Positions 2,916 to 25,747 of a stretch of 41,836 nt of DNA are shown piece by piece. The translations under genes were made by a program, and so were the position numbers. The stretch lies in the IMG/VR virus record IMGVR_UViG_3300036985_004072, positions 1-41,836 of that record; one strand, given 5' to 3'. Source of the stretch: a virus. Every line of letters begins with the position of its first letter. Within the stretch, counting starts at the first letter, position 1. A model generated the notes under the pieces. It searched no databases. It was given only the letters and a program-made list of their open reading frames with translations, and was not told where the DNA came from.

Positions 2916-3496
2916 CCACCGAGACCCCGACACCCGCGGAGGGCGCCCCCAACACGCCAGCCCCCGCCGATGTCACGGCTACCGCCACGACTGCAGCACC
3001 GGCAACCGCGACCACCGCGGCGCCGGCCGCGGCGCCTGCTGCACCGGAGACCCCGGTCGAGTACGCGTTCGAGCTGCCCGAGGGGGTTGACCTGGACGAG
3101 AAGGGCGCCGAGGGCCTCACCGCCCTGGCGCGCGAGCACAAGCTGCCTCCCGAGGCCGCCCAGAAGCTCGTCGACATGTACGCCGAGCGCGTGCAGGCCC
3201 AAGCCAACGCGTTCACCGACATGGTCAAAGGTTGGGAGACCGAGGTCAAGAAGGACCCGGCCCTGGGCGGCGACAAGCTCGCCGAGACCATCACTGTCGC
3301 CAAGACCGCGATCGACAAGTACGGCAGCCCCGCGCTGCTGGCCCTGCTCGACAGCAGCAAGATGGGCAGCCACCCGGAGGTGATCAAGTTCCTCCACAAG
3401 GTCGGCTCGACCCTCAAGGAAGACACGGTCGTGACCGGCAAGCCGCCGGTGGCGCCCGCGAAATCGTTCTACGACAACAGCAACATGGCTCCCTGA
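2912..3496 (+). CDS. Capsid scaffolding / head assembly protein
   Basis: 194 residues, GTG start inside the preceding stop (GTGA). The first 50 residues are a low-complexity Ala/Thr/Pro linker. The following part is helical and charged (LPEGVDLDEKGAEGLTALA..., W-E-TE-KKDP-LGG), with a C-terminal segment ending in KSFYDNSN. Acidic helical proteins of this size directly before the major capsid gene in BPP-1-like phages are scaffolds that guide procapsid assembly and then leave. No protease catalytic motif is visible, so I prefer scaffold to protease. Confidence 0.75.
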   Translation: MTTETPTPAEGAPNTPAPADVTATATTAAPATATTAAPAAAPAAPETPVEYAFELPEGVDLDEKGAEGLTALAREHKLPPEAAQKLVDMYAERVQAQANAFTDMVKGWETEVKKDPALGGDKLAETITVAKTAIDKYGSPALLALLDSSKMGSHPEVIKFLHKVGSTLKEDTVVTGKPPVAPAKSFYDNSNMAP

Positions 3497-3516
3497 GCCG
3501 CTGAAAGGACTGAAAC

Positions 3517-4515
3517 ATGGCTGCTCTGAGCACCACCCACCCGACGCTCCTGGACTTCAAGGCGCGCCTGGACCCGGACGACAAAGTCGCCCGCGTGATC
3601 GAGATCTTGAACCAGCAGAACGAGATCCTGGACGACATGGTCTGGGTCGAGGGCAACGAGCTGACAGGTCACCAGACCTCGATCCGCACCGGCATCCCTG
3701 AGCCGACCTTCCGCAAGCTGTATGGCGGCGTCCAGCCGACCAAGAGCACCAGCGCGAAGATCCGCGAGGGCACCGGCATGCTGGAAGCCTACGCCGAGGT
3801 CGACAAGGCCCTGGCCGACCTGAACGGCAACAGCGCCGCCTGGCGCATGTCCGAAGAGCTGCCGCACATCGAGGGCTTCGCGCAGAAGGTCGCCCGCTAC
3901 GTGATCTACGGCAACGAGGCGAGCGAGCCCGAAGGCTTCACCGGCCTGGCCCCGCGCTTCAACGACCAGTCGGCCGCCAACGGCGAGAACATCCTGACCG
4001 ATTCCGCCACGCCTGACGGCACCGACAACACCTCCATCTGGCTGGTGGGTTGGGGCCCGAACACCGTGCACGGCATATACCCGAAGGGCAGCCAGGCCGG
4101 CATCCAGATCGCCGACAAGGGCCAGGTCACCATCGAGAACGTGGACTCCAACGGCGGCCGCATGGAAGCCTACCGGACCCACTACCGCTGGGACTGCGGC
4201 CTGTGCGTGCGCGACTGGCGCTACGTGGTGCGCATCAACTTCGACTACGAGAACCTGGTCAAGGACGCTGCCACCGGCCCCGATCTGACCGACCTCATGG
4301 CGCAGGCGATGGAGTTGATCCCCAACAAGAACGGCGTGCGTCTGGCCTTCTACGGCAACCGCGGCACCAAGTCGTGGCTGCGCCGGCAGATGACCAACAA
4401 GACCAAGCAGTCGACCCTGTCGATGGAGAACATGGCCGGCCGCCATGTGATGACCTTCGACGGCGTGCCGTTCCGCCGCGTCGACCAGATCCTCTACACC
4501 GAGGCCGGCATCTAA
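3517..4515 (+). CDS. Major capsid protein (BPP-1 Bbp17-like)
   Basis: 332 residues, typical for the HK97-fold coat proteins of BPP-1-like podoviruses (about 330). The start ATG follows a good ribosome site (GAAAGGA, 3503-3509). The sequence pattern (TLLDFKARLDPDDK near the N terminus, DDMVWVEGNELTGHQTS, then a GFTGLAPRFND segment and a DWRYVVRIN segment) fits this coat family. It forms the icosahedral shell. The context (scaffold before, cement protein after) supports the call. Confidence 0.88.
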   Translation: MAALSTTHPTLLDFKARLDPDDKVARVIEILNQQNEILDDMVWVEGNELTGHQTSIRTGIPEPTFRKLYGGVQPTKSTSAKIREGTGMLEAYAEVDKALADLNGNSAAWRMSEELPHIEGFAQKVARYVIYGNEASEPEGFTGLAPRFNDQSAANGENILTDSATPDGTDNTSIWLVGWGPNTVHGIYPKGSQAGIQIADKGQVTIENVDSNGGRMEAYRTHYRWDCGLCVRDWRYVVRINFDYENLVKDAATGPDLTDLMAQAMELIPNKNGVRLAFYGNRGTKSWLRRQMTNKTKQSTLSMENMAGRHVMTFDGVPFRRVDQILYTEAGI

Positions 4516-4553: not shown

Positions 4554-5009
4554 ATGATTTTAGACGAGAGAACCGAGTTTTGCGACGCCACGGCGTTGAA
4601 CACCGGCGCGGCCGGTTCCTACCTGCTGGGCGACCAGATCGATTCGGGCGCGGTTGCCCGCGACTTGGGCGAGTCGACCGACCAGCTGTACCTGGTGTTG
4701 CAGGTGGAAACCACTGCAACCTCGGGTGGCAGTGCCACGGCGGCCTTCCATCTGGCCAGCGACAGCACGGCCAGCGTGGCGACCGACGGAAGCGCGACCT
4801 ACCACTTCAGCACCTCGGCCATCCCGGTGGCCACGCTGGTGGCGGGCTACGTGATCGCCATCGTCGCGCTGCCCCGCGGCAAGCTGTACGAGCGCTACCT
4901 CGGCATCCTGCAGACGACCGCTGTGGCGGCCTTCACCGCAGGCAAGATCAACGCGTTCCTGACGCCTGATCCGAGCAACTGGCGCCACTACGCCGACGCA
5001 GCGAACTGA
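4554..5009 (+). CDS. Bbp16-family capsid cement protein
   Basis: 151 residues. The start ATG at 4554 is preceded by AAGGAG (4541-4546). The opening MILDERTEFCDATALNT and the later GDQIDSG and PRGKLYERYLGI segments match the Bbp16 cement family that I recall from BPP-1. There, a jellyroll protein decorates and stabilises the expanded capsid. It directly follows the major capsid gene, as in BPP-1. Confidence 0.85.
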   Translation: MILDERTEFCDATALNTGAAGSYLLGDQIDSGAVARDLGESTDQLYLVLQVETTATSGGSATAAFHLASDSTASVATDGSATYHFSTSAIPVATLVAGYVIAIVALPRGKLYERYLGILQTTAVAAFTAGKINAFLTPDPSNWRHYADAAN

Positions 5010-5022
5010 TCGGACCTGAGCG

Positions 5023-5250
5023 ATGGCGTACATCACCACCCGTGACACGTTCGACCATCGCGGTCTCTTCGTCCGAAAGGGGGAGGAGATCACCTTCCGC
5101 GAGGGGGCGAAGATCCCCAAGTGGGTGGTGAGCCGCGACAAGTTCAAGCCGTCCGACATTCCTGTCGAGCCGAAGATGGGCGACACGAAACCGAAGGCGG
5201 CGCAGGAGGCGGTCAAGAAGAAGGCCGCCGACTTGAACAACCTGGCCTGA
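5023..5250 (+). CDS. Small basic head-region protein, unknown
   Basis: 75 residues with an SH3-like N-terminal part (residues 1-45; many short strands, e.g. GLFVRKGEEITF) and a Lys/Ala-rich tail (KPKAAQEAVKKKA). It follows the cement gene by 13 bases and precedes a terminator, so it closes the head transcription unit. Small proteins at this place in related phages are not assigned to a function that I know. It could be a minor head component. Confidence 0.65.
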   Translation: MAYITTRDTFDHRGLFVRKGEEITFREGAKIPKWVVSRDKFKPSDIPVEPKMGDTKPKAAQEAVKKKAADLNNLA

Positions 5251-5270
5251 CCCAGGCCCGCTGAACCCGA

Positions 5271-5294
5271 AGGGCCGCCACGAGCGGCCCTTTT
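5271..5294 (+). terminator. Rho-independent terminator after head genes
   Basis: A perfect 8-bp stem AGGGCCGC / GCGGCCCT (5271-5278 and 5284-5291) with a 5-base loop is followed by TTT. It lies in the 59-base gap between the small head gene and the tail tube gene, so it probably reduces read-through from head into tail genes. Confidence 0.8.
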
Positions 5295-5309
5295 CACAGG
5301 AGCATCGCC

Positions 5310-5960
5310 TTGGCCTCAGTCGCCGATATTTGCAATGTGGCCTTGTCGGCCGTCGGCGCCGACGCGGTCGTGACCTCGATCAGCCCCCCTGACGGCAGCG
5401 TCGAGGCGGGGCATTGCACCAGGTTCTACCCGCTCGCGCGCAAGCTGATGATCGAGACCGGGCCATGCGTGTTCGCGCTGAAGCGCGCGGAGCTGGCCGA
5501 GGTCGACAACGCCAGCGAGGTGTGGAGCTACGCCTACGCCCTGCCGGCCGACTGCATCAAGCCGCTGCGCGTCCTGCGCGCGCTCGACTTCCCCTACACC
5601 AACGCCTCGATCTACGAGATCGACAAGGTGCTCACCAGCTTCGAGCCGAACGAGCAGGGCGGGGCCGAGTACCAGATCGAGGGCCAGGTGCTCTACACGC
5701 ACGAGCCCGAGGCCGTGCTGATCTACCGGCGCGACGTCACCGACACCACCAAGTTCACGCCCACCACCGTACTGGCGCTGGGCACGCTGTTGGGCTCGTT
5801 CCTGGCCGGCCCCATCGTCAAGGGCATGGACGGGGTCCGCCTGGCCCAGGCGCTGCGCAACCAGGCCACCGAGCTCATGGCCCAGGCCGGGGTCCTCGAC
5901 GCCAACAGCAGCACCGAGCGGCATGAGCCGATGCCTTCGTCGATCAGGGCCCGCCAATGA
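5310..5960 (+). CDS. Tail tubular protein A-like (head-tail adaptor)
   Basis: 216 residues, TTG start chosen because ACAGGAGC (5295-5302) sits just upstream and the N terminus ASVADICNVALSAVGA is typical for this adaptor family. T7 gp11-like proteins form the dodecameric ring under the portal and the upper part of the short tail. The helical pattern, length (T7 gp11 is close to 200) and the position before the tail tube B-like gene support the call. Its end overlaps the HNH gene by ATGA (5957-5960). Confidence 0.8.
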   Translation: MASVADICNVALSAVGADAVVTSISPPDGSVEAGHCTRFYPLARKLMIETGPCVFALKRAELAEVDNASEVWSYAYALPADCIKPLRVLRALDFPYTNASIYEIDKVLTSFEPNEQGGAEYQIEGQVLYTHEPEAVLIYRRDVTDTTKFTPTTVLALGTLLGSFLAGPIVKGMDGVRLAQALRNQATELMAQAGVLDANSSTERHEPMPSSIRARQ

Positions 5961-19664: not shown

Positions 19665-20026
19665 TTATTTTCCTCGAGCTCGATCAGCAGATCCAGGAAG
19701 TGGCGGGCCTTTTTCAAGTCGGCTAGGCCGTTCTTGCTGCGCCAGCGGCTGACGTACTTGATGACGCACCCTTCAGCGAAGGGGATGCCGTTGGCGTGGA
19801 TGAACTCGATCGGCTGGATCTTCATCGCTTTGTAGTGCCCACCGCCCTCTTGGTGATCGAGCGCGCTGGGCGGCTCGGTCATCTCGACGGGGTCGGGATG
19901 CCCGGCCGGCGGCAGTGGCCACGTCGTTGCCTGCTTGAGCCGATCGTCTTCGCACCGCAGGCACCGCCCGCCGTGGTACTGCATGTGGACCGTGCAGTAC
20001 GTAATGCCATTAAAATCGCCGCTCAT
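19661..20026 (-). CDS. DUF3310 family protein
   Basis: 121 residues. The N-terminal part has paired cysteines and histidines (YCTVHMQYHGGRCLRCED) suited to a metal site. The C-terminal part (ALDHQEGGGHYKAMKIQPIEF, CVIKYVSRWRSKNGLADLKKA) is the DUF3310 signature, a phage family often called nucleotide kinase in annotations without direct proof. ATG at 20026 overlaps the helicase stop (ATGA), so it is part of the minus operon. A longer frame exists upstream but would run through the helicase gene. Confidence 0.82.
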   Translation of the reverse strand: MSGDFNGITYCTVHMQYHGGRCLRCEDDRLKQATTWPLPPAGHPDPVEMTEPPSALDHQEGGGHYKAMKIQPIEFIHANGIPFAEGCVIKYVSRWRSKNGLADLKKARHFLDLLIELEENK

Positions 20027-22341
20027 CTCTGCCCCTTCATCGCGTCGAGCAGCAAAGACTGCACCGACGCCTTGGTTTGCAAACGTGCGAGCACCAGCTT
20101 GTCGACGGTGCCCTTGGTGATCAGCCGGTGCACGAACACCGGCCGGTTGTAGCCCGACTGCGCCTGGCGCGTCGGGCCTATTCTTTCGATGATTTGCTCG
20201 TGCTGCTCGAGGTCCCACCAGAGGCCGAAGAAGACGATGATGTTGCCGCCGTCTTGGAGGTTGAGCCCGTGGCCAGCACTCGCAGGGTGAGCGAATAGCA
20301 CCGGGATCTGTCCGGCGTTCCATGCCTGAATAGTTCCAGGCCCAGTATCCAGCGCCCGGCCTTGAGGGAACGCGCGCTGTAGTCTGGCGAGGTCACTCTT
20401 AAAATGGTAGGCCACCAGGACGGGCGCGCCGGCAGCCTCCCCCACCACGGAGTGAAGAGCTTGAATCTTTGCATCATGGATCTCCTCGAAGGTGCCGTCG
20501 GCGTCTGTGTAGAGAGCGCCATTGGCCAGTTGCAGACAATTATGTACCAGTAAGTTGCCGGCACTTCCCCGAACGACAAAGCGGTGCCGCGGGCCGGCGT
20601 TTACTAGATCGAAGACGCGGGCGGTACGAGCGCAGCAGCAACCGGCCAACCCCGCCTTAGCCGCTTGTGCAGCGTGATGTACTTCACGCCAAAAGCCCTG
20701 GACGCCTGGGCTACCGTCATGCGCCCCTGTGGCGTTTCGATCCAGACGTTCCCCCGACGGTTGTTGGCTTGGTCCACGGCTGTTGCCCACCGGCAGTTGC
20801 TTTTGTTGTAACCCCCGTTGTTGTTTTTCCGATCCAGCGTCAGCCCTGGCGCCCACGTCGGGCCCATATCGACCCAGAAGTTCGAGAACGACTCGTGCCA
20901 TCGTGCGCAAACCTTGACGCCACGCGAACCGTAGTTTTGCCAGTCCTTGTCGTTTGGGTTCTCGCAGCGCGATCTCATGCCGTTCCAAGTCACCCAGGCA
21001 GGATGGTCGGTCATGCCGTGGGAGCCCCAAGCCGCTAGAAGCATTTCTCCCCGACGGCACCCACACGACTTCAGCGCGCCGCGGGTTTTGGATCGAAGAC
21101 TTACCCCCGTCCGTACTACTTCCATTCCGCAGATGCACCGGAGCCTCCACGTTGCTTGTTTGGATCTGGCTCGATTCGACAGCCCTTCGCGGCGTATGAC
21201 CGTCAGGTAACCGAACGTCTGCCCGGACAAGTCTTTTACTGGCATCGGCATTGTTGATCTCCTGCGCCTCGCGCCAACCGGCAACGGTGAGCACCTTGTG
21301 GTCTGGCGTCATTAAAACACCACAACATTCTATGACTGTTTTATACCCGTTGAAGGCCGCGCCGTCTGTTTCTACCCACTCCACTCCATCCCACACCCGA
21401 TCAGCACGGCTGACGGTTTCTATCGCGGCCCAGCCCCGCTGGGTCAACACTTCGGTCCCTTCGGCGATGCATTTCATCGTCAGGCTGGCAGCGTTGAAGG
21501 CCTCGACCTCCGCGCCGGTGTCCAGCTTCAGGAACATCTCCCGCTCCAGCTCCTTGTACAAGGCCTTGGCCTTGGCGGGCATGTTGACCTCGATCACGTT
21601 CTCGATCAGGGGCGGCAGGTCCAGGTAGTCGGCCGCGCGCACGGTGATCGTGCAGTCGGCCAGCAGCCGGTAGATCTCATCCTCGGCGCCGGGCAGCGGT
21701 GTGGTAACGCCGCCGAAGGCCTGGCCTGGTGCGCGCTGGGTCTTGAACCACCGGTTCTGGTACGCGCCGAAGGACCGGCCCAGCCTGACACCGGCGTCGA
21801 TGAACCACTGCTGGCCCCACAGATCCAGCAGCCCGTTGGGCGCCGGGCTGCCGGTGAGGTTGACCCACCGGCGCACATGCTTGTGGGCCACGCGACCCAG
21901 GGCCCGGGCCCGGATGCCGCCCTGCAGCACCCTGAACGACTTCAGCCTGGTGGCCTCGTCGGCTACCACGGTGCGGAAGGGCCAGCTGTCCTTGACCTCC
22001 TCGGCCAGCCAGGGCAGGTTGTCGTAATTCGTCGTGACGATGTCGGGCCGGCGGCGCAGCACCCCGCGGCGGAAGGGGGCGTCACCGCAGGCGGCGCCGA
22101 TGTTCAGGCCGTTCAGGTGGGCCCACTTCTGGGCCTCGTCGGGCCAGGTGGACTGGGCCACCCGCAGCGGGGCCAGCACCAGGGCGGGGAAGGGGTCCTC
22201 GACCAGCGCCAGGCCCTGCAAGATGGTCAGGGTCGACACGCTCTTGCCGGTGCCCATGCCTGACCAGACGTTGCAGCGCTCGTGCTCGGCGATGAACCGC
22301 ATGATGGCGCCCTGGTAGTCGCGGGGCTTGAACTCACGCAC
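20023..22341 (-). CDS. SNF2/DEAD-like helicase interrupted by an intein
   Basis: 772 residues before splicing; about 461 after removal of the intein (residues 291-601). N-extein: Walker A SGMGTGKS (27-34), DEAT box (128-131), and SGSP-like LTGSPAPNG motif. C-extein: helicase domain 2 with LVAYHFKSDLARL, GHGLNLQDGGN and the arginine-finger motif QIIERIGPTRQAQ. The insertion point is LTMK/C-LQLANGALY, a conserved stretch between the two domains and so a typical intein site. Phage proteins of this type act in replication or recombination. GTG start at 22341 (cac on +) overlaps the upstream gene by 8 bases. Confidence 0.88.
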   Translation of the reverse strand: MREFKPRDYQGAIMRFIAEHERCNVWSGMGTGKSVSTLTILQGLALVEDPFPALVLAPLRVAQSTWPDEAQKWAHLNGLNIGAACGDAPFRRGVLRRRPDIVTTNYDNLPWLAEEVKDSWPFRTVVADEATRLKSFRVLQGGIRARALGRVAHKHVRRWVNLTGSPAPNGLLDLWGQQWFIDAGVRLGRSFGAYQNRWFKTQRAPGQAFGGVTTPLPGAEDEIYRLLADCTITVRAADYLDLPPLIENVIEVNMPAKAKALYKELEREMFLKLDTGAEVEAFNAASLTMKCIAEGTEVLTQRGWAAIETVSRADRVWDGVEWVETDGAAFNGYKTVIECCGVLMTPDHKVLTVAGWREAQEINNADASKRLVRADVRLPDGHTPRRAVESSQIQTSNVEAPVHLRNGSSTDGGKSSIQNPRRAEVVWVPSGRNASSGLGLPRHDRPSCLGDLERHEIALREPKRQGLAKLRFAWRQGLRTMARVVLELLGRYGPDVGARADAGSEKQQRGLQQKQLPVGNSRGPSQQPSGERLDRNATGAHDGSPGVQGFWREVHHAAQAAKAGLAGCCCARTARVFDLVNAGPRHRFVVRGSAGNLLVHNCLQLANGALYTDADGTFEEIHDAKIQALHSVVGEAAGAPVLVAYHFKSDLARLQRAFPQGRALDTGPGTIQAWNAGQIPVLFAHPASAGHGLNLQDGGNIIVFFGLWWDLEQHEQIIERIGPTRQAQSGYNRPVFVHRLITKGTVDKLVLARLQTKASVQSLLLDAMKGQR
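20539..21471 (-). other. Intein (Hint domain) in the helicase
   Basis: Begins at Cys291 (C-I-A-E-G-T-E-V-L-T, block A). It has block B GVLMTPDHKVLT with Thr345 and His348, and ends with RVFDLVNAGPRHRFVV (block F) and LLVHN before Cys602 (block G: His600, Asn601, Cys+1). All splicing residues are present, so it should be active. Between block B and block F lies a 200-residue stretch that looks unlike any protein domain in this frame; it is the out-of-frame image of the nested HNH gene at 20604-21251. Confidence 0.9.
20604..21251 (-). CDS. HNH homing endonuclease nested out of frame in the intein
   Basis: 215 residues, encoded on the same strand as the helicase but in a different frame. ATG 21251 has its own ribosome site, AGGAG seven bases upstream. 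Domains: a Cys-rich part (CIC...KSCGCRRGE) and an HNH core of the phage type (WNGMRSRCENPND, YGSRGVKVCARW, FVDM-like FWVDMGP, LTLDRKNNNGGY, NCRWATAVDQANNRR). A C-terminal helix-turn-helix (MTVAQASRAFGVKYITLHKRL) follows, like the DNA-binding ends of homing enzymes. Its stop codon falls within intein block F. It probably makes the intein mobile by cutting inteinless helicase genes. Confidence 0.88.
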   Translation of the reverse strand: MPMPVKDLSGQTFGYLTVIRREGLSNRARSKQATWRLRCICGMEVVRTGVSLRSKTRGALKSCGCRRGEMLLAAWGSHGMTDHPAWVTWNGMRSRCENPNDKDWQNYGSRGVKVCARWHESFSNFWVDMGPTWAPGLTLDRKNNNGGYNKSNCRWATAVDQANNRRGNVWIETPQGRMTVAQASRAFGVKYITLHKRLRRGWPVAAALVPPASSI

Positions 22342-23662: not shown

Positions 23663-25747
23663 TCAACCTTTCCGGTAGCGGTCGCACTCGAACCCCGCGG
23701 CGGCCAGCGGCGCGTCGGGGGCCCACGATGGGCGAACCGACATCAACGCCGCCAGGTGCTCGGCGCTGAAGTCGTCGGTGTCGGGGGCTTCTGTGATCAG
23801 CTCGTCGTGCACCGTGAGCACAATCTCGTAGCTGGCGCTCTCGACGGCCGGCATGTTGGTCGACAGCACGTCGCGCGCGGCGGCCTGAGTCCAGTTCTCC
23901 ACCAGCTTGCCGCCGTAGGTCTTGAGCCTGGCCCACCGGCGCGTGTACTGGTTCACGCCCATGTAGGTGATCTGCCCGTCGTCAGCAACCTTGGGCTGCA
24001 GGTAGCAGACATACCGCCCAGACGGCAAACGGCAGCGCAGCCAGGCGCCGTCGCGCTGCACTTTGATGCGGGGACCAGCGTCGAACGTGATGCCGGGGTT
24101 CTCGATCGCGGCCTTGACTGCGTCGCCAGCGGCGGCCCACAGCGCGGTGGTCGCCGGGTGGGCGCTACGCCACATGGCCTTGAGCGCCTCGCAGGCCACA
24201 TAGATGTTGCGCTCCAGGCCCAGGGTGCGCTTCTTCCTGGTGGCCCACTCCCACATGCCGTAGGCCTTGGCCAGGACCTCCTTCGGGGCGGTGCTGTGCA
24301 CGGCATCGGCGAGCTCGGCGAGGTCCATCTGGTAGACCGCGGCAAAGGTCAGGAACGCCGCGACGCCGCCCTCGTAGCCCAGGCCCAGCTCCATCACCTT
24401 GCCGATCTGGCGCATCTGCCCGATGGCCAGGGCGGGGTCGATGTTGAACGCGCGGCCATAGGCCACTTTGTAGAGGTCGGCGCCGGTGCCCGCGTCGAAC
24501 GCAGCGAACGCGCGCAGCTTCCACTGCTCGCCGGCCAGCCAGGCCAGCATGCGGCCCTCGATGTTGGACAGGTCGGCGATCACCAGCTTCTTGCCAGGCG
24601 GCGCCACGATGCAGCCGCGGATGGCGTTGCTGGTGACCGACATCACGTCGTCGAAGTAGTCGGTGGCGCAGCCAGCCTTGAGGGACCAGATCGCGGCGTC
24701 GATCTCGTAGTCCTTCATGGTCGGCCGGGGCATGTTCTGCGGCTGGAAGATCCGGCCGGCCCAGCGGGCGGTACGCTGCGCGCCGGCGAACTGCAGCGTG
24801 TTGCGCAGCCGGCCGTCGGTCGACACTGCGTTGACCAGGGCCTTGTACTTGGCGGTGCTGGTCTTGGTGGCCTCGAGCCGCAGGCTGATCAGCAGCTTCA
24901 CGCCGTCGGGCAGCTCGGGGTCATCGAGCCGGCGGCGCAGGGTGTCGGCCTTGAAGTCGGGCAGCTCGACACCGTAGGCGTCCAGGATGAAGCGCAGCAG
25001 CTCGTCGCGCTTCGAGGGCCCGCTCACCTCGCCGAGCGTGGCGTCCTGGACGGCCTTCTTCAGTCGGGCCTGCTCCGTTGCAACGGCACGAATTGCGGCG
25101 TCTGCCAGGTCCACGTCAACTTGAAACCCTCGGTCATTGATTCGCTGGTCAAGGTGCCAGAGGGCCAGCTCAGGATGCCCGGGCCGGTAGTTCCAGGAGG
25201 GCAGCCGCCGGTCGATCTCACGCATGGCAACGATGTCTTGTCGTGAATACTCAAGAAATTCGGCCCACTCTGCGGGATGTGTTTCACGGGTTGCCCTTCG
25301 GCCGGTGTGGCCCTTCGGCCTGGGTTTGCAGAACAGCTGGATGAGCTGGGTGCCGCGCCGGTCCTTCTGCTGGTCGAGGGGAAGGCCCAGCACCTCGCCG
25401 ACTTTGCCCAGGCTGCCAGGCAGACCGTGGGCGTAGGCCTTGACCATCGTGTCGCGCCAGCGCTCGACCGGCACGTCGATGCCCCAGCAGTGGCGGATGA
25501 GGGTGCGGTCGAAGACGCTGTTGTGGGCGACGATCTCGACGGCGGGGTCCTCCAGCAGCGCGACCAGCGGCGCGGGCACGCGGTGGGGGAGAGGGTCGGT
25601 GCAGTCGCAGACCACCGGCTCGCCGTCGTCGACAGCCCACTGGGCGACAGCGATCTCGGTGCTCGGGTGCTCGGCGTAGCGGTGCGTGCCATGAGCTTTG
25701 AGGTCGGCCTCGCTGTAGGTTTCGGTGTCGAACCAGAGAGTGGTCAT
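23663..25747 (-). CDS. Family A DNA polymerase with 3'-5' exonuclease
   Basis: 694 residues, similar in length to T7 DNA polymerase. The exonuclease begins at once: Asp7-x-Glu9 in WFDTETY, with HNSVFDRTLI (Exo II) and YSRQDIVAMREI (Exo III). The polymerase has motif A IADLSNIEGRM (Asp392), motif B around RQIGKVMELGLGYEGG and motif C VHDEL (Asp648). It is the replicative polymerase of the phage. Start is ATG 25747 directly after a 16-bp tandem repeat. No intein here, unlike the helicase. Confidence 0.95.
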   Translation of the reverse strand: MTTLWFDTETYSEADLKAHGTHRYAEHPSTEIAVAQWAVDDGEPVVCDCTDPLPHRVPAPLVALLEDPAVEIVAHNSVFDRTLIRHCWGIDVPVERWRDTMVKAYAHGLPGSLGKVGEVLGLPLDQQKDRRGTQLIQLFCKPRPKGHTGRRATRETHPAEWAEFLEYSRQDIVAMREIDRRLPSWNYRPGHPELALWHLDQRINDRGFQVDVDLADAAIRAVATEQARLKKAVQDATLGEVSGPSKRDELLRFILDAYGVELPDFKADTLRRRLDDPELPDGVKLLISLRLEATKTSTAKYKALVNAVSTDGRLRNTLQFAGAQRTARWAGRIFQPQNMPRPTMKDYEIDAAIWSLKAGCATDYFDDVMSVTSNAIRGCIVAPPGKKLVIADLSNIEGRMLAWLAGEQWKLRAFAAFDAGTGADLYKVAYGRAFNIDPALAIGQMRQIGKVMELGLGYEGGVAAFLTFAAVYQMDLAELADAVHSTAPKEVLAKAYGMWEWATRKKRTLGLERNIYVACEALKAMWRSAHPATTALWAAAGDAVKAAIENPGITFDAGPRIKVQRDGAWLRCRLPSGRYVCYLQPKVADDGQITYMGVNQYTRRWARLKTYGGKLVENWTQAAARDVLSTNMPAVESASYEIVLTVHDELITEAPDTDDFSAEHLAALMSVRPSWAPDAPLAAAGFECDRYRKG

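Follow-up and report, generated by a model that had tools for sequence, protein, structure and literature searches.

Classical full-length inteins carry a LAGLIDADG or HNH endonuclease in frame, between blocks B and F of a Hint splicing domain that comprises blocks A, B, F and G. Nested endonuclease open reading frames (ORFs) are found in group I introns too, where the endonuclease gene again lies within a self-splicing element. Another arrangement, the fractured genes of Dassa et al. 2009, reportedly consists of split inteins whose two halves flank a free-standing endonuclease gene, the endonuclease being said to belong to a family other than the HNH family discussed below. Out-of-frame HNH insertions are known from mycobacteriophage methylases, namely the ShiLan domain and the Pacc40 insertion, for which support was found for neither an intein nor an intron and no ribosome-binding site was detectable (Arsenault, Gosselin and Gogarten, 2025; PMC11855218). 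Another paper (PMC12613952) likewise mentions a methylase with an HNH out of frame. The ShiLan element, an out-of-frame HNH without an intein, is the closest published case to the phage intein described in this report.

This intein lies in a window of 41,836 nucleotides, the whole stretch of DNA that was analysed (IMG/VR virus record IMGVR_UViG_3300036985_004072). It has in common with ShiLan and Pacc40 an HNH gene that uses a different frame from its host gene, a host frame that remains open, a patchy distribution and an insertion site between conserved residues. In contrast to these insertions, which contain no splicing domain, the HNH of the window type sits inside a complete intein, is found in hundreds of phage polymerases and helicases and often has Shine-Dalgarno (SD)-like sites; with its complete Hint domain, the window element does not meet the ShiLan-type criterion of lacking a self-splicing domain. 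Hint blocks A, B, F and G, an endonuclease between B and F and the logic of homing are shared with classical full-length inteins, but the endonuclease is a separate protein in the other frame and the in-frame linker is mere filler. As in fractured genes, the endonuclease has its own gene between the Hint halves, whereas the window intein is contiguous in one ORF and thus fails the criterion for a split intein, Hint halves on separate ORFs. The resemblance to group I introns is limited to the nesting of an endonuclease gene in a self-splicing element, since splicing would here occur at the protein level, the insert being read through; a group I intron was rejected, no Rfam match being found at E up to 1 over positions 20300-21700.

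The host gene, on the minus strand at 20023..22341, encodes an SNF2-like phage DNA helicase of 772 codons, intein included (phrog_62, E=1e-137; PF00176, E=2e-12), and is matched in tblastn searches by many phage helicases that have no intein. The original prediction that helicase residues 291-601 form an intein is borne out by alignments of relatives, by an empty site in one of them and by AF2 and Foldseek comparisons. The 311 residues (C291 to N601; 20539..21471, minus strand) run from Cys1 to a terminal His-Asn and separate an N-extein (22341..21472) from a C-extein (20538..20023, both minus strand). All residues of a class 1 intein are present, i.e. C1, TPDH, HN and C+1. The Hint N-terminal part, with blocks A and B (TPDH), covers intein residues 1-70 (21262..21471, minus strand), and the C-terminal part, with blocks F and G, covers residues 281-311 (20539..20631, minus strand) and ends in LLVHN. 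The Cys+1 codon of the C-extein (TGT; 20536..20538, minus strand) is native in the empty relative, L005 from IMG/VR, which is 91% identical in DNA to the window helicase and reads NAASLTMK/CLQLANGALY without interruption. The junction peptide is identical and the insert precisely absent, so that the comparison of homologues with and without the insertion, proposed together with the prediction, gave an exact empty site.

Two further observations concern the surroundings of the intein. At about 20239-20418 of the window, 120-300 bases 3' of the intein, identity to L005 is 60-83%, against more than 90% in most of the remainder; this diverged patch is possibly a co-conversion tract, or possibly the product of unrelated recombination. 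The window also encodes a DNA polymerase (23663-25747) in which the site occupied by inteins in relatives, YGGKLVEN/WTQAAARD, is empty and Trp takes the position of the obligatory Cys+1.

The DNA of the linker encodes a complete HNH-family endonuclease of 215 amino acids in the +1 frame relative to the helicase (20604..21251, minus strand), starting at an ATG at 21251 and ending at a stop at 20604 within block F, 65 bases before the end of the intein. It thus shares 648 bases with the intein. A Shine-Dalgarno-like AGGAG (21259..21263, minus strand) is located 7 nt before the ATG, an assignment made from the sequence and from the enrichment of such motifs in relatives. Profile matches in PHROG (phrog_374, E=6e-57; phrog_3377, E=2e-49), an AF2 model and a codon-shuffling test all support this gene, which had been anticipated with its own AGGAG, ATG and stop in block F. 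We consider it confirmed that the insert is an intein whose presumed mobility enzyme is a separate +1-frame gene lying over the linker; splicing, HNH expression and cleavage are inferred. The HNH motif lacks its canonical first His: in a weak match (E=0.059) to I-HmuI (1u3e), Arg141 (LDR) of the window HNH aligns with the catalytic His, and Arg occupies the aligned position in the main HNH family. Because Arg replaces this catalytic residue, the cleavage chemistry of the main family is not established.

Structure prediction sets the two frames apart. AF2 was run on alignments of relatives from which three rows from phage records had been left out. The HNH frame is predicted to be folded (mean pLDDT 87) as an elongated modular protein with a pTM of 0.56; Foldseek searches with this model returned no match in the PDB and many phage HNH proteins among the predicted viral structures of BFVD. 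In the intein frame, the Hint parts (residues 1 to about 70 and 281-311) reach a pLDDT of about 90 or more and match the Mtu RecA, Ssp DnaB, gp41-1 and DnaE inteins with a Foldseek probability of 1.0. The linker at residues 92-278 (20638..21198, minus strand) is predicted to be disordered, with pLDDT below 50 at residues 92-172 and 203-278 and a low-confidence helix at residues 176-200, and Pfam scans of the window intein found no endonuclease domain in this frame between blocks B and F. The original prediction held that the stretch between blocks B and F forms no domain, and the models agree; with a disordered linker between confident Hint halves, there is therefore no sign of an in-frame endonuclease domain. 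A cryptic in-frame endonuclease was rejected on the lack of a Pfam endonuclease domain and on the disordered model.

The arrangement is a widespread phage intein type and not a one-off, as the original prediction had vaguely suspected. When tblastn was run with the intein, the same layout was found in Caulobacter phage RW and its relatives, in the APSE phages of Hamiltonella and in Shewanella phage SFCi1, and profile-guided scans of IMG/VR yielded 530 candidates. A first set, assembled from the best 80 of these 530, an HNH-based scan and bacterial contigs and then reduced to 125 non-redundant inteins, had the HNH in +1 in 117 cases, in +2 in four and in frame in none, the remaining four being mini-inteins without HNH. 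A further scan used the Hint N-block alone, so that the linker could not affect the ranking. The total then reached 165 contiguous full-size inteins (255-330 residues), 133 with HNH in +1, 31 in +2, one mixed and none in frame, besides eight mini-inteins. All 165 thus have an out-of-frame HNH, and the in-frame endonuclease in homologues that would have refuted the prediction was met in none of them (0/165). The host genes are phage polymerases and helicases, with insertions in conserved motifs. Contiguous elements were recognised through their open intein frame, and homologues are not independent observations. In an HNH-first check that did not require an open intein frame, 121 HNHs had the two Hint blocks on either side; for 118 of them the intein frame was open in one ORF, two were split and one had an undetermined base and a shift.

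The suggested search of phage inteins for HNH genes in an alternative frame was also successful in isolated Caulobacter, APSE, Shewanella and Salmonella phages. The polymerase inteins of Salmonella Jerseyviruses, Shigella phage EP23 and Vibrio phage 97.13 have the HNH in +2, and an HNH at least 80% identical to that of the Jerseyviruses is encoded in 163 phage records. RefSeq describes the Jerseyvirus polymerase intein in NC_023608 (L321, 2352-3248) only as 'encoding splicing domains' and leaves the +2 HNH unannotated; a LAGLIDADG endonuclease is annotated for this phage's helicase intein. What RefSeq lists as the HNH endonuclease P46 of APSE-1 (L060, 2717-3139) covers only part of the +1 HNH that lies in the polymerase intein of P45. 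One polymerase gene, L003, holds two inteins, with HNH in +2 (3455-4312) and in +1 with an interrupted HNH frame (4787-5704). A second, unrelated case is the first intein of L058 (2864-3721), which has PF14890 in the polymerase frame and PF13392 (HNH_3) in +1, the latter with a canonical motif. The intein frame is open in its relatives (L322-L329), two of which (L323 and L324) have a broken HNH frame. No literature report of an out-of-frame endonuclease inside an intein was found in open-access papers, the only ones covered, and within that limit the type is apparently undescribed so far.

Ribosomes might slip by +1 from the intein N-half near residue 70 and produce the HNH as a fusion without a fresh start. 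The two frames do meet within the intein, no new start codon would be needed, and some relatives lack a clear SD motif (41 of 108 HNH starts have no obvious one). Against slippage, a start codon is found at a nearly constant place, between intein codons 57 and 79, in 108 relatives (75 ATG, 30 GTG and 3 TTG), and SD-like motifs precede 67 of these starts (62%) vs 13% of background positions, an enrichment whose significance is inflated by relatedness. Both +1 and +2 offsets occur. Moreover, a free-standing HNH beside an intein-less polymerase (L168) has the same start, MGRRRL, as L183, and the N-half ORF of split relatives extends only a short way into the HNH gene. On this evidence, a programmed frameshift fusion is not favoured, and we regard it as very unlikely.

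The two frames could also be open merely because the insertion is recent, the HNH frame being a decaying relic. Indeed, L003/L235, L004, L271, L323 and L324 combine a broken HNH frame with an open intein frame. This explanation is opposed by the intact window HNH, with its start and SD, and by the pattern of substitution in 21 disjoint pairs of relatives, where the HNH frame is under purifying selection in most pairs over 1-29% DNA divergence; the relic can be given only very slight credence. Variability at the three codon positions is 0.15/0.10/0.36 in the Hint N-part, 0.32/0.13/0.12 in the overlap and 0.11/0.05/0.30 in the Hint C-part, the variable position of the overlap being the third position of HNH codons, and the pattern flips at the borders of the HNH gene. 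Per opportunity, HNH-silent changes occur about 3.5 times as often as HNH-replacing ones (relative rates 2.2-2.4 and 0.64-0.68), and it hardly matters what they do to the intein residue (2.23 vs 2.35 among HNH-silent and 0.68 vs 0.64 among HNH-replacing changes). Since substitution rates follow the HNH and not the intein residue, the intein-frame linker is a shadow that needs only to lack stops. The overlap evolves as HNH code, and the linker shows no amino-acid constraint. In the proposed comparison of selection in the two frames, HNH-replacing changes are thus the rarer kind and the effect in the intein frame is nearly irrelevant; as for the description of the stretch as dual-coding, both frames are open, but the coding is lopsided.

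The avoidance of stops completes this picture. Since an open intein frame was the means of finding contiguous elements, the absence of intein-frame stops in their overlaps (733 expected, 0 observed) is partly built in; for this reason the stop test was rerun from the HNH side with reciprocal controls. In a +1 overlap, an intein-frame stop arises only where an NNT codon of the HNH precedes AA, AG or GA. In 137 +1 HNH genes, codon-final T before these dinucleotides was never used (0/4429), against 26% at other places, and its use is normal in +2 HNHs (450/1302) and in free-standing HNHs (121/445). Conversely, in a +2 overlap no synonymous change can remove the stop that arises where ATG precedes an A-initial codon, and Met before K, N, T, I or M is absent from +2 HNHs (0/48) and present in +1 (210/796) and free-standing HNHs (22/64). 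Each class, as these reciprocal patterns show, bears the imprint of its own overlap. Free-standing relatives of the HNH have 3 to 19 stops in the frame equivalent to +1. For the window HNH, T-ending codons occur at 0 of 34 possible sites before AA, AG or GA and at 25 of 133 elsewhere; when its synonymous codons were shuffled with protein and codon counts fixed, the intein frame acquired 4.8 stops on average and remained free of them in only 108 of 40,000 shuffles. Together with the codon-position rates, this upholds the proposal that the intein frame only has to avoid stops while the other encodes the selected protein. Because every NNT has a synonymous NNC, all stops in +1 can be removed with the enzyme unchanged, which may explain the dominance of this frame.

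If the insert were not spliced, it could persist as a disordered loop of the helicase with the Hint parts as relics, as proposed for the ShiLan element in its methylase. The predicted disorder of the linker is compatible with such a loop, for which the published out-of-frame HNH insertion without splicing parts offers a precedent (PMC11855218). It is hard to reconcile with the retention of the splicing residues, C1 and T..H in 168/168 elements, HN in 162/168 and Cys+1 in 161/168, with strong purifying selection on the Hint-coding DNA, with the confidently predicted Hint fold and with insertion in conserved polymerase and helicase motifs, and we consider it highly unlikely. Splicing of the window intein is inferred from the conserved splicing residues, the modelled Hint domain and the exact empty site. 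Lastly, that sequencing or assembly indels split an in-frame endonuclease had nothing in its favour beyond the caution expressed with the original prediction and can be practically dismissed, given the same layout in independently sequenced complete genomes of many groups (APSE-1, Caulobacter RW, Shewanella SFCi1 and about 163 Jerseyvirus-type records) and the lack of any in-frame homologue.

The history of these elements was addressed with a FastTree phylogeny of the HNHs, which has moderate support and gives no direction. All +2 HNHs but one long-branched row fall into a single group (26 rows, support 99), and the helicase-inserted elements, the window copy included, into another (24 rows, support 94); the tree tracks the insertion gene, with split forms scattered. 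HNH and Hint distances are correlated (Mantel r=0.56), from which we conclude that the two travel together. The idea that a free-standing HNH gene landed in a mini-intein therefore stands in part: both exist in the same families, but capture is ancestral and not local to the window, as the co-divergence and the helicase-inserted group indicate. There were probably at least three such events, +1 and +2 in one Hint subfamily and +1 in an unrelated one. Free-standing relatives include the HNH of L168 (3380-4009), directly downstream of an intein-less polA and placed within the out-of-frame group, which perhaps escaped from an intein or perhaps preceded it.

In L281 (2501-3457), L210 (3260-4198) and L173 (3250-4225), each placed among contiguous elements and each matching the layout of fractured genes, the polA intein is split and the HNH gene separates its two halves. 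In all three, the N-half ORF ends just inside the HNH gene and the ATG of the C-half overlaps the HNH stop (ATGA). L263, L287 and L299 may be further, less clear split cases. Once the HNH is a gene in its own right, this layout would need only an intein-frame stop and an ATG that overlaps the stop of the HNH gene, and it apparently arose at least three times in the +1 group.

In our opinion the window element is very probably a mobile intein with its homing endonuclease as a separate +1 gene over the linker, spliced and homing by means of an internally initiated HNH, although no experiment has addressed splicing, HNH translation or cleavage. Ribosomes translating the helicase would read through the entire insert; the Hint halves would assemble into one fold, from which the shadow translation of the HNH gene protrudes as a loose loop, and excise themselves to leave an intact helicase. 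A second initiation, inferred from the internal SD and ATG, would yield the HNH protein, which is presumed to cut intein-less helicase genes at the insertion site, repair then copying the intein and its HNH in. Such an element may sometimes become a split intein with the HNH gene between its halves. More generally, we lean towards the view that overprinted inteins are a third widespread way to carry homing endonucleases, arising from repeated capture of free-standing HNH genes into mini-inteins in any frame that can stay open, and an intermediate on the way to natural split inteins.

A large group of phage inteins, some of them long annotated as splicing domains only, thus turns out to have a presumed mobility enzyme after all, concealed in a second reading frame. 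The overlap is an unusually clean natural one, in which one frame is selected as protein, the other has only to be free of stops, and splicing can remove the cost. The genetic code itself gives a rule for which frame a captured gene can occupy and, if the proposed history is true, these elements would provide a concrete route from contiguous to split inteins.
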